From Candidatus Babelota bacterium (lineage in GTDB: Bacteria > Babelota > Babeliae > Babelales > Chromulinivoraceae), in NCBI GenBank assembly GCA_016183005.1, contig JACPFN010000003.1:31323-95322 (forward strand): a DNA stretch of 64,000 nucleotides. Direction: 5' to 3'. The notes under the pieces are model-generated. The model saw only the letters and a list, made by a program, of their open reading frames with translations, was not told the DNA's origin and made no database searches. Below, one piece after another: positions 20,624-48,391 of this stretch. Numbering within the stretch: position 1 is the first letter of the stretch; each line of letters begins with the position of its first letter. Made by a program: the position numbers and the translations under genes.

Positions 20624-22000
20624 ATGCTGTCTTCAGTTATTCATTTCTTTTATCCTGATATCAGACATGAAGATATCAAAAAAACATCCCTTCTTGGATT
20701 AACATTCTTTTTTATCATTGGTGCTTATTGGCTCCTCAGGCTCTTAAAGGATCTATTCTTTTATAACTCGCTTGCATTCCCTACATCACTTGGCTGGGAT
20801 GCTGACGCTGGTCGTCTGGCTCTTCCTTTTGCAAAAATGATTTCACCTTGGATCGTTCTTGGTGTTGTTATTATATATTCAAAGCTCGTTGATATGTTTG
20901 AAAAACATATTCTTTTCTACATTATCACAACTTTTTACAGCATCTGTTTTTCTATCGTCACAGGAATATTATTTATTCAAGCAAGCTATGGTGATGCAGT
21001 TTTAGGTAAAGATCTTTTAATGTATACCGGATATGCTGCTTACTGGTTAACAGAAAGCATGGGTTCCGTTCTTGTTGCATTCTTCTGGTCATTTACCGTA
21101 AGCTCAACTCCTTCAGAACAAGCAAAAAGAACATTTCCTTTAATCGTTGCTCTTGGTCAAATTGGATCAGTTGGTGGATCATCACTTCTTTTTTTACCAA
21201 TTAGCACATGGATGAAATTCTTAGTAGCTATCGCTCTTCTTATTGGCGTATTTATGGCAGTTCGCCATACAGTTTCTGTTATTCCTATGGAACATCAAGC
21301 TGCTGATCGTGACACAAAAAAATCTCGCCCAAGTATGTTTAGTGGTTTAGTGCTTCTTGTAACAAAACCATATCTCATGGGTATCTTAGTTGTTTCAACT
21401 TTCTATGAAATTGCTGGTACCATTGTTGACTATCAAATGAAATCTCAAGTTAAACTTGCTGGTATTGATTTTGAATGGTTCCAAGGTATCCTTGGTACTT
21501 CTGTTAACGTTTTATCATTCATTGTAGCTCTTCTTGGTACAAGCGCATTAATGAAACAATTCGGTATTAGAGTTTGTTTACTTATCTATCCAGCAAGCTT
21601 TGCTGTAATGCTTACAGGTCTTTATGTTTACTACTCAAGTGGACTTTCAACTCCTTTGGCTCTTGCATGGGCTGCATTTGCTGTGATGTTAGTTGTTAAA
21701 GCTGCTTCATATGCTGTTAACAATCCTATCAAAGAGATGATGTACATTCCAACAAGCAAAGACGTAAAATTCAAAGTAAAAGGTATCATTGATATGCTTG
21801 GTGGCAGATCTGCAAAAGCAACTGGTGCTACAATTGCTGGTAAACTTAATGTTGCCGGTGATACAGCTGCATCTATGCATAATCTTTTCTTCCTTGGATC
21901 ACTTATTGGTCTTGGAATAATCGGTGTATGGATCTTGGCTGCGCTATTCGTTGGCAATAAAAATAATCAACTTGTCAAAAGCGGTCACATCATCGAGTAA
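20624..22000 (+). CDS. tlc: ATP/ADP translocase (Tlc/NTT family), copy 1
   Basis: Inner-membrane nucleotide carrier that, in intracellular bacteria and plastids, exchanges host ATP for ADP or takes up nucleotides. 458 residues with 11-12 hydrophobic helices. Family landmarks: LRLLKD (R39, K42, D43) in helix 1, TESMGSVLVAFFWSF, FYEIAGTIVDYQMKSQ and the highly conserved KEMMYIPTSKD...K segment before the last helices. GAAAGG precedes the ATG. A second copy follows after a terminator. Substrate (ATP/ADP against other nucleotides) cannot be fixed from sequence. Codons and spelling here look slightly more regular than in copy 2, consistent with strong expression. Confidence 0.9.
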   Translation: MLSSVIHFFYPDIRHEDIKKTSLLGLTFFFIIGAYWLLRLLKDLFFYNSLAFPTSLGWDADAGRLALPFAKMISPWIVLGVVIIYSKLVDMFEKHILFYIITTFYSICFSIVTGILFIQASYGDAVLGKDLLMYTGYAAYWLTESMGSVLVAFFWSFTVSSTPSEQAKRTFPLIVALGQIGSVGGSSLLFLPISTWMKFLVAIALLIGVFMAVRHTVSVIPMEHQAADRDTKKSRPSMFSGLVLLVTKPYLMGILVVSTFYEIAGTIVDYQMKSQVKLAGIDFEWFQGILGTSVNVLSFIVALLGTSALMKQFGIRVCLLIYPASFAVMLTGLYVYYSSGLSTPLALAWAAFAVMLVVKAASYAVNNPIKEMMYIPTSKDVKFKVKGIIDMLGGRSAKATGATIAGKLNVAGDTAASMHNLFFLGSLIGLGIIGVWILAALFVGNKNNQLVKSGHIIE

Positions 22001-22035
22001 TTTAAACAATTTATATTGAAATATTGTTCGACATC

Positions 22036-22075
22036 AAAGACTCCGGCATACTATTGTCGGAGTCTTTACTTTTTG
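22036..22075 (+). terminator. Intrinsic terminator between the two translocase genes
   Basis: AAAGACTCCG pairs with CGGAGTCTTT over a 12-base loop, followed by ACTTTTT. Confidence 0.85.
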
Positions 22076-22098
22076 GGATATATCGATTAAGGGGATTT

Positions 22099-23484
22099 AT
22101 GTTCACAAATTTTATTCAATTTTTTTATCCGGATATTAAGCAAGAAGAGATTAAAAAATTTAGTCTTCTTGCTTTAGCATTTCTTTTCACCATTGGAACA
22201 TATTGGCTTATGAGACTATTAAAGGATTTAGTTCTTTATAAATTAGCCTTTCCCTGCTGCCTTGGTTGGGCAGAAGATACTGGCAGACTCTGGATCCCTT
22301 ATGTGAAAACTCTTTCTCCCCTATTCGTTTTTTTTATTGTCCTATTGTACGGTAGACTTGTTGATATTTTCAAAAAACATGTCCTAATGTATGTTGTAGC
22401 AACTTTTTACATTATTGTATTTTCGTACATGACTATCATCCTATTTTTAAAACATACATATGGTGATATCTTTATTGGAAAAACTTTACTTGCAGCCAGC
22501 GGAATAGTGGGCTATTTGTTTACAGAAAGTTTCGGTTCTTTGATGGTTGCTTTGTTCTGGTCATTTACTATAAGCTCTTCAACCACTGACCAAGCAAAAA
22601 GAGCTTTTCCTTTTATTGTTGCAGCTGGACAATTTGGCGCAATTGGAGGATCAAGCCTCATGTTAATTAAAACAGCAGTTATCTGGCCATTCTATGCCAC
22701 TGTTGTTCTATGTCTTATTTTTTTTATAACAACCATACAACACCTGATAAAAATAATTCCTAACGACGAACTTCAAAGTGATATAGTACATGAACACAAA
22801 AAGGAACATCATGCGTGGAGTGGGTTTACGCTTCTTTTTTCGCAACCCTATTTAATAGGCGTATTAATTGTTTCAACATTTTATGAAATAACAGGAACAA
22901 TCCTTGAATATCAAATGAACTCTCAAGCATCTTTTATATTTGATCATATACAATTTAAATGGTTTAAAGGTTTATACGGAGTATCGATTAACACGCTTGC
23001 CTTTATGATCGCACTTCTTGGTACCAGTTATATTATCAAAAAACTTGGCACACAGATCTGTTTACTTATTTATCCAATTCTTTTTGCCTTACTATTATTC
23101 AGCCTTTATAGTTTTTATTATCTCTCAGAGCATAATCCTTTTTATATCTTATGGGCCTTGTTTTTAGTTATGCTCATCATAAAAGCTGTATCTTATGCCG
23201 TTAACAGCCCAGTTAAAGAGATGATGTACATTCCAACAAGTAAAGATGCAAAATTTAAAACTAAAAGCATTATAGATATGTTTGGTTCTCGATTTGCAAA
23301 AATGTCTGGAGCTCGCATAGGGGGAACATTTAATATTGAAGGCAATCCAACCCTTTCTATCCATAATTTAATCACATATGGAACTCTTATTAGCCTTGGA
23401 GTTATAGGAATATGGATTATGGCTGCTATATATGTTGGTAAAACTAATTCAAAACTTTTAAAAGATAAAAAAATTATTGAATAA
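22099..23484 (+). CDS. tlc: ATP/ADP translocase (Tlc/NTT family), copy 2
   Basis: 461 residues, closely related to copy 1 throughout: FFYPDIKQEEIKKFSLL, LMRLLKD, TESFGSLMVALFWSF, FYEITGTILEYQMNSQ and KEMMYIPTSKDAKF are the matching landmarks. One visible difference is Glu in place of Asp in the ILEYQM/IVDYQM segment, near a residue important for transport in plant carriers. The start at 22099 (AAGGGGA upstream) is preferred to the in-frame start at 22024, which would include the terminator hairpin. The two copies probably arose by tandem duplication and may differ in substrate. Confidence 0.9.
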   Translation: MFTNFIQFFYPDIKQEEIKKFSLLALAFLFTIGTYWLMRLLKDLVLYKLAFPCCLGWAEDTGRLWIPYVKTLSPLFVFFIVLLYGRLVDIFKKHVLMYVVATFYIIVFSYMTIILFLKHTYGDIFIGKTLLAASGIVGYLFTESFGSLMVALFWSFTISSSTTDQAKRAFPFIVAAGQFGAIGGSSLMLIKTAVIWPFYATVVLCLIFFITTIQHLIKIIPNDELQSDIVHEHKKEHHAWSGFTLLFSQPYLIGVLIVSTFYEITGTILEYQMNSQASFIFDHIQFKWFKGLYGVSINTLAFMIALLGTSYIIKKLGTQICLLIYPILFALLLFSLYSFYYLSEHNPFYILWALFLVMLIIKAVSYAVNSPVKEMMYIPTSKDAKFKTKSIIDMFGSRFAKMSGARIGGTFNIEGNPTLSIHNLITYGTLISLGVIGIWIMAAIYVGKTNSKLLKDKKIIE

Positions 23485-47446: not shown

Positions 47447-48391
47447 ATGGATGCACTATATATTATTTTATCTACTCTTCCCGCAGTTCTTTCTGGAATT
47501 GGAACAAGCATAGGCCAAGGAATTATCAACAAAAATGCTATGGAAAGTTTAAACCGACAGCCATCAGCATCTAGTTCAATCTCTAAAATCTCCATTATTG
47601 GCATGGCAATTGTTGAAACAGCCGCCATTATGGGCATGGTTATCTCTATCTTGCTTATCAATGACCCAAAAATTAATGCTGATACATTTTTTTCTAATCT
47701 TGCAGCTGCTGGTATCGCACTAGCTTTAGGCATATCAGGACTTTGCGCAGGGATAGCAGCTGCTCTTCCTGCTGCTAAAACTTGCCAAAGTATTGCTCAT
47801 CAACCATTCATGTATACCAAGCTCTTAAACATGATGCTCATTGTCCAAACACTTATTATGACTCCGAATATGTTTGGCATGATTATTGCCCTTTTAATTA
47901 AAAATAAAATAACTGCAATTGAAATTTTACCAGAAGCTATGCAACTTTTTGCAAGCGGACTGAGTATTGGTATTGGTTGCATTGGACCATCTATCGGTCT
48001 TAGCATTTTTGCAAGTTCAGCATGCAGCGCAGTTGGAATTAATAAAAAATCCTTTAATAAAATTATGACATTTACGTTTGTATGCGAAGCAATTATCGAA
48101 ACACCTGCAATATTCGCTTTACTTATTTCACTGATTATCTTAACAACAACTATCAAACCTGAATCAGCAATACAGGGCTGGCAATTTATAGCTGCTGCAC
48201 TTTGTATGGGCTTAAGTACCATAGCTCCAGGAATTAATGCAGGAAAAACAGGTGCTGCCGCATGCAAACAGATGGGATTAAATTTAGAACAATATCCATC
48301 CCTTTCAAAGCTTGCACTACTTGCTTTAGCTATGATCGATTCTTTTGCTATTTACGGGTTACTCGTCTCAATTGTCCTACTTCTACTTTAA
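47447..48391 (+). CDS. atpE: Fused four-hairpin c subunit of rotary ATPase
   Basis: 314 residues, eight helices arranged as four c-type hairpins with an 80-81-residue period. The ion-site position carries E57 (IVETAAIMG), M138 (LIMTPNMFG), E218 (IIETPAIFA) and D298 (AMIDSFAIYG). Hairpin 1 has GIGTSIGQG with Q24 and Thr after the Glu, as in sodium-binding c subunits; hairpin 2 keeps a loop HQP (118-120) like hairpin 1's RQP (37-39), while 3 and 4 do not. Ordinary bacterial c subunits are 70-90 residues with one hairpin. Fusion, not frame error, since the reading frame is unbroken. Three of four ion sites remain. A ring of such subunits should transport fewer ions per turn. Confidence 0.88.
   Translation: MDALYIILSTLPAVLSGIGTSIGQGIINKNAMESLNRQPSASSSISKISIIGMAIVETAAIMGMVISILLINDPKINADTFFSNLAAAGIALALGISGLCAGIAAALPAAKTCQSIAHQPFMYTKLLNMMLIVQTLIMTPNMFGMIIALLIKNKITAIEILPEAMQLFASGLSIGIGCIGPSIGLSIFASSACSAVGINKKSFNKIMTFTFVCEAIIETPAIFALLISLIILTTTIKPESAIQGWQFIAAALCMGLSTIAPGINAGKTGAAACKQMGLNLEQYPSLSKLALLALAMIDSFAIYGLLVSIVLLLL

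Follow-up and report, generated by a model that had tools for sequence, protein, structure and literature searches.

A four-hairpin c subunit behind subunit a

The stretch of DNA analysed here (the window) comprises 64,000 nucleotides from a Candidatus Babelota bacterium, a member of the Dependentiae (TM6). Its forward strand carries, at 46675..47430, the genome's only gene for subunit a of an F-type ATP synthase (PF00119, E 1.5e-36; single copy) and, directly downstream at 47447..48391, a gene for a c subunit of unusual length (c4). The c4 frame is open from ATG through stop and codes for 314 residues. The protein has four matches to PF00137 (Pfam; total E 5.8e-39, 132.6 bits, above the cut-off), which followed each other end to end within a single frame of 315 codons when the genome was searched in all six frames. 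AlphaFold2, using 53 orthologues, models the protein as four helical hairpins (pLDDT 96.8, pTM 0.91), not one or two. The best fold match in the PDB found by Foldseek is 4bem_J, a c1 chain with two hairpins from the ring of Acetobacterium woodii (E 1.9e-4), and the best sequence match is likewise the double-hairpin c1 of A. woodii (E 2.6e-13). All this agrees with an original prediction, made from the letters of the sequence, which had proposed an uninterrupted 314-residue frame with four c-type hairpins and had anticipated four adjacent PF00137 hits.

The residues at the ion-binding positions are also those that had been predicted: E57, M138, E218 and D298, at spacings of 81, 80 and 80. Hairpin 1 (residues 1-76, 47447..47674; modelled helices 2-37 and 39-71) has the cytoplasmic loop R37-Q38-P39 and a sodium-type Q..ET arrangement made of Q24 and E57-T58; its carboxylate, E57 (GAA, 47615..47617), is E in 91 and D in 4 of 95 orthologues. 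Hairpin 2 (residues 81-155, 47687..47911; helices 81-104, 106-118 and 120-155) retains the loop as H118-Q119-P120 and has no carboxylate in its second helix, where M138 (ATG, 47858..47860) takes its place. Hairpins 3 (residues 161-233, 47927..48145; helices 161-177, 179-198 and 200-233) and 4 (residues 241-313, 48167..48385; helices 241-256, 259-278 and 280-313) lack the loop motif, again as predicted, and of the sodium-type motif they have the T/S and not the Q. Both carry a carboxylate, E218 (GAA, 48098..48100), which is E in 90 of 95 orthologues, and D298 (GAT, 48338..48340), which is D or E in 94 of 95. The stator arginine of subunit a (R173, in RLFGN) is invariant in 33 of 33 orthologues, so that the stator looks functional.

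Upstream of a, at 46393..46662 on the same strand, lies a gene for a hydrophobic protein of about 90 residues, in the place of AtpI/AtpR and presumably accessory; its identity is weak. A comparable small gene is found there in most of 52 relatives; the protein is very divergent and is kept in most of the phylum. Among the 35 members of the family, PF03899 is matched in eight (best E 0.0035) and PF12966 (AtpR) in two (best 0.073); the window's own protein matches neither. An identity as AtpR was discarded, since these matches fall below all family cut-offs.

One dispersed ATP synthase with two c genes

Besides c4, the window's genome (92% complete; a draft of 905 kb in 17 contigs) encodes an ordinary c subunit (c1, 84 residues, at G000:C4:134391-134579) on another contig, and c1 is present throughout the phylum; the idea of a single-gene c subunit, part of the original prediction, had to be given up. 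The order at this locus is c1, b-like, b'-like, delta, alpha. Delta (PF00213, E 2.1e-21) and alpha were confirmed by Pfam; the names of the two b-like genes, neither of which has a Pfam match, come from their position only. Beta and epsilon (PF02823 in Pfam) adjoin each other elsewhere in the genome, and gamma (PF00231) stands alone on a third contig. ATP synthase genes are thereby spread over at least four places, the window and contigs C4, C12 and C17: a-c4, c1-b-b'-delta-alpha, beta-epsilon, and gamma by itself. This genome yielded a single gene each for alpha, beta, gamma, delta and epsilon; a third PF00006 match, in a frame of 603 residues, we take to be Rho. Since a, gamma and the alpha/beta pair are each present once and c genes twice, the inventory points to one ATP synthase with two kinds of c.

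Conservation across the Dependentiae

PF00137 was matched in 100 of 101 genomes of the phylum, most of them with five matches, one in a single-hairpin frame and the others sharing a frame some 320 codons long; nearly every genome has one c1 besides the hairpins of c4. Subunit a was matched in 95 of the 101, including all 68 near-complete ones, and two extra hits are fragments. The original prediction had called for a search of other Dependentiae for c subunits of the same length, and these exist: c4 was read in 95 genomes, the window's included, always with 310-351 residues, adjacent to a and on the same strand. At every locus holding both genes c4 comes directly behind a; one more genome (G012), beyond these 95, has its c4 at another contig end. 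The gap between a and c4, scored in 94 cases, is at most 35 bases in 93, and in 42 the genes overlap by 4 or 1 base. No c4 was read in five genomes (G010, G021, G039, G045, G061), each of them 53-78% complete. In one relative the a gene (G064:C66:14698-15402, locus L063) has an in-frame TAG, which is either an error or real.

In 29 of the 31 loci read, the genes that follow c1 are b-like or delta (the remaining two loci are cut by contig ends), and none of the 31 has an a gene nearby. Its ion site has a sodium-type core, with the carboxylate E and a Y in all 31 loci, and Q and S/T in 29 each.

The ion sites of c4 are more variable. Written from hairpin 1 to hairpin 4, the 95 proteins read EQED (43), EEEE (21), EQEE (13), EMED (7), DQED (3), EQGE (2) and six single combinations, which gives three live sites in 69, four in 22 and two in 4. 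Hairpin 2 is without carboxylate in about 72 of the 95, its residue being Q in 61-62, M in 7, V in 2 and G in 1, and E in 23. The predicted dead site stands for this hairpin of the window's protein. The methionine is a local form: in the window's own family the position is typically M or V, in most of the phylum it is Q, and in roughly a quarter E. Proteins with E at hairpin 2 make up one deep clade and those with Q the other (SH-aLRT 100% on each side), apart from one stray E in family f19. Outside the phylum the position is Q or S. The history of the site appears to come down to one split between two deep clades, in which either Q or E may be ancestral.

Related operons outside the phylum

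In a scan of named genomes, 35 of 36 matches to c4 were four-hairpin genes, mostly labelled TM6, Dependentiae or Babeliales, some just 'bacterium' and one Proteobacteria, so that the original prediction had the taxon right. The restriction of multi-hairpin F-type c subunits to the Dependentiae that this suggested was overturned by a wider sample. A c4 profile applied to 374 genomes, of which some 273 lie outside the phylum, gave long matches in 16 of the latter. The 16 loci read there have the order a, multi-hairpin cN, single-hairpin c1 (contig ends truncate two of them, L185 before c1 and L193 before a). Four hairpins are found in L178, L179 and L180, and probably in L185, three in six loci and two in another six; in the phylum to which L180 belongs, each of the four genomes has a multi-hairpin cN. 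The original prediction, which knew of no described four-hairpin form in a bacterium of this type, has to be widened: the trait is shared by the whole phylum, and F-type c genes with two to four hairpins occur in unrelated bacteria as well.

These operons resemble the Dependentiae in that they are F-type, with a single a directly before the multi-hairpin c and a single-hairpin c1 also encoded. They differ in that c1 is adjacent, whereas it belongs to a separate operon in the Dependentiae, and in that most cN sites are dead (GQQQ in L178, ESSQ in L179, ESQQ in L180, typically EQQ when N is 3), whereas c4 mostly has three live ones. In four loci cN has no carboxylate at all (L178:1034-1999, GQQQ; L186:4510-5253, SQQ; L191:4741-5223, GQ; L193:5-475, QQ), and each of these genes is followed by an intact single-hairpin c. 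On the established rotary mechanism such a cN should be unable to drive rotation alone, so that a mixed ring would be required in these organisms.

Origin of the four hairpins

In a tree of single hairpins, which rests on 76 columns, each of the four hairpin positions of the Dependentiae forms its own clade (bootstrap 99-100), implying that the four-hairpin gene predates the radiation of the phylum. Hairpin 1 groups with the first hairpins of the outside proteins (98/85), hairpin 2 with their middle hairpins (98/86), and hairpins 3 and 4 with c1 from the Dependentiae themselves (96/92). This topology suggests, as a lead and not as a result, that c4 may have arisen when two c1-like hairpins were joined to a two-hairpin cN of older date. 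That one hairpin was simply quadrupled within the gene is disfavoured, the tree speaking against it; an AU test retains a single clade of all four hairpins (p 0.26). A direct descent of hairpins 1 and 2 from the double-hairpin c1 of A. woodii found no support: the two hairpins of that protein pair together (100/97), and being each other's closest relatives they appear to stem from an independent duplication. A viral origin of c4 was likewise dropped, as viral contigs gave no match and one loose pattern only.

Comparison with known rotors

The combination of a multi-hairpin and a single-hairpin c in one F-type system with one a, found in the window's genome, has a precedent. The hybrid rotor of A. 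woodii, with its double-hairpin c1 and c2/c3, was reportedly described by Matthies et al. in 2014 and by Brandt and Muller in 2015, whose review is said to mention further hybrid rotors and about twelve species with the double-hairpin form. To our knowledge, it is the only bacterial hybrid rotor to have been solved. In A. woodii and Clostridium aceticum the double-hairpin c1 has a live first hairpin (E) and a dead second one (Q), and a single-hairpin c2 accompanies it (PMC7911925). The likeness to the Dependentiae extends from the F-type setting and the pairing of a multi-hairpin with a single-hairpin c to the sites themselves, hairpin 1 having Q..ET and hairpin 2 no carboxylate (QT in A. woodii). 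The differences are that A. woodii has two hairpins where c4 has four, with sites retained in hairpins 3 and 4, and that both c genes of A. woodii lie in one operon behind a, whereas the c1 of the Dependentiae is found on another contig or in another operon, before b-like, delta and alpha. In this gene order A. woodii and C. aceticum agree with the outside a-cN-c1 operons.

Fused c/K subunits are also known from V/A-type enzymes, with 2 hairpins in E. hirae, 3 in Methanocaldococcus jannaschii and 13 in Methanopyrus kandleri (PMC2359735). They share with c4 the tandem fusion of hairpins and the loss of carboxylate in some (M. kandleri excepted), but their partners are of V/A type, whereas those of c4 are F-type: a (PF00119), delta, alpha, beta, gamma and epsilon. 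The Burkholderia N-ATPase has a c17 ring of single-hairpin c, in which a sodium-type motif mispredicted the ion used (PMC5376962). The Dependentiae have in common with it an AtpR/AtpI-like gene before a (here a weak match) and a sodium motif in c that may mispredict the ion; they differ in that N-ATPases have single-hairpin c, lack delta and always occur besides another complete operon, while the Dependentiae have delta and no second F1 set. In the open-access literature searched we found no account of an F-type enzyme with a four-hairpin c, nor of such a trait in the Dependentiae, in keeping with the earlier suggestion that a bacterial form of this kind was undescribed. Hybrid rotors as such are already known; the four-hairpin F-type version, new as far as this search goes, is well supported at the level of sequence.

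A probable hybrid ring and its alternatives

The best explanation, which sequence and analogy make probable, is that these cells build one F1Fo-ATP synthase with a hybrid rotor of c4 and several copies of c1, in the manner of A. woodii. As a rotor subunit of the cell's sole F1Fo-ATP synthase, c4 would share the ring with several single-hairpin c1, its four hairpins forming an arc that would turn against subunit a. Hairpins 1, 3 and 4 would carry one ion each and hairpin 2 would pass the stator empty, so that the number of ions moved, whether per turn or per ATP, would be below the number of hairpins in the ring. We would guess at one c4 per ring, since each enzyme has one a and the gene for c4 is in most cases coupled directly to that for a. 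A ring of N hairpins with one three-site c4 would then move N-1 ions per turn, and (N-1)/3 per ATP. The co-assembly of c4 and c1 and the stoichiometry of the ring are what we infer from this evidence; a ring stoichiometry and ion-to-ATP ratio changed by c4, as the original prediction had it, is plausible, and Na+ rather than H+ may be the coupling ion.

The evidence does not all pull in one direction. The four outside cN without carboxylate, which would work only in a mixed ring, count for the hybrid rotor. So do the single a gene and F1 set beside two kinds of c, the close linkage of c4 to a, the preserved carboxylate of c1, and the likeness to A. woodii and C. aceticum in gene order and in the E-then-Q pair of sites, together with the fold match to A. 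woodii. Against it count the three carboxylates in 69 of 95 c4 (four in 22, two in 4), with which a ring of c4 only would be possible, and the placement of c1 and c4 in different operons, which could be expressed at different times. From these same observations one might imagine two alternative homomeric rings, c4-only or c1-only, assembled on the same F1, a and stalk and providing two gear ratios according to conditions: the carboxylates of most species' c4 would be sufficient for torque. This we hold to be unlikely, given that the outside relatives encode cN and c1 in one operon, some with a cN that would be useless alone, and that A. woodii, the characterised analogue, mixes both kinds of c in one ring (PMC7793690, PMC7911925). 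Somewhat less likely again is a ring made of one kind, either c4 alone, with c1 a minor or assembly part, or the reverse, c1 forming the ring and c4 a structural plug. The frequent translational coupling of c4 to a and the intact state of most c4 sites would agree with the first version, but the sodium-type site of c1 is intact in nearly every case and its gene lies in the operon of delta and alpha, so that c1 looks like a full rotor subunit; the live sites kept in c4 are unlike a mere plug. Very improbable is the idea that a and c4 are part of a second, separate rotary ATPase, for instance an N-ATPase: the AtpR/AtpI-like small gene upstream of a, and scores of the a protein on altF1 models (below cut-offs), lean that way, but the genome has no second a, alpha/beta or gamma set, and delta is present (PF00213) where N-ATPase loci have none (PMC4154653); on these grounds an N-ATPase was rejected. 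As for an assembly or frame error fusing separate c genes, to which a draft in 17 contigs might give rise, it is ruled out for practical purposes by the 95 independent orthologues (94 in further genomes, among them the single-contig G004, G024 and G097), all of similar length and without internal stop, and by the separate clade that each hairpin position forms across the phylum.

Possible consequences for the Dependentiae

How many ions are moved per ATP, a key quantity in the energetics of a cell, is set by the composition of the ring. Taken as a whole, a picture in which all Dependentiae run a single ATP synthase with a mixed ring of c1 and a mostly three-site c4, c4 being a fusion of an old cN (hairpin 1 live, hairpin 2 dead) with two hairpins of their own c1, and in which a-cN-c1 rotors of two to four hairpins, some lacking every carboxylate, are widespread in bacteria and largely undescribed, their idle positions setting the ion-to-ATP ratio, seems to us evenly balanced between right and wrong. 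The phylum-wide c4 and its relatives, with two to four hairpins and zero to four live sites, make a natural series for exploring how many idle positions a rotor tolerates, and for what reason.

At 20627-23439 the window also has two adjacent genes resembling TLC-type ATP/ADP translocases (PF03219), with more copies on contig C13, while COX1 and NuoH had no match in the window's genome. These observations would fit an enzyme that, in bacteria importing ATP, may often work in the pumping direction, driven by ATP. If such host-dependent bacteria do spend imported ATP in this way to energise their membrane, a ring that moves fewer ions per ATP would be well suited to the task.
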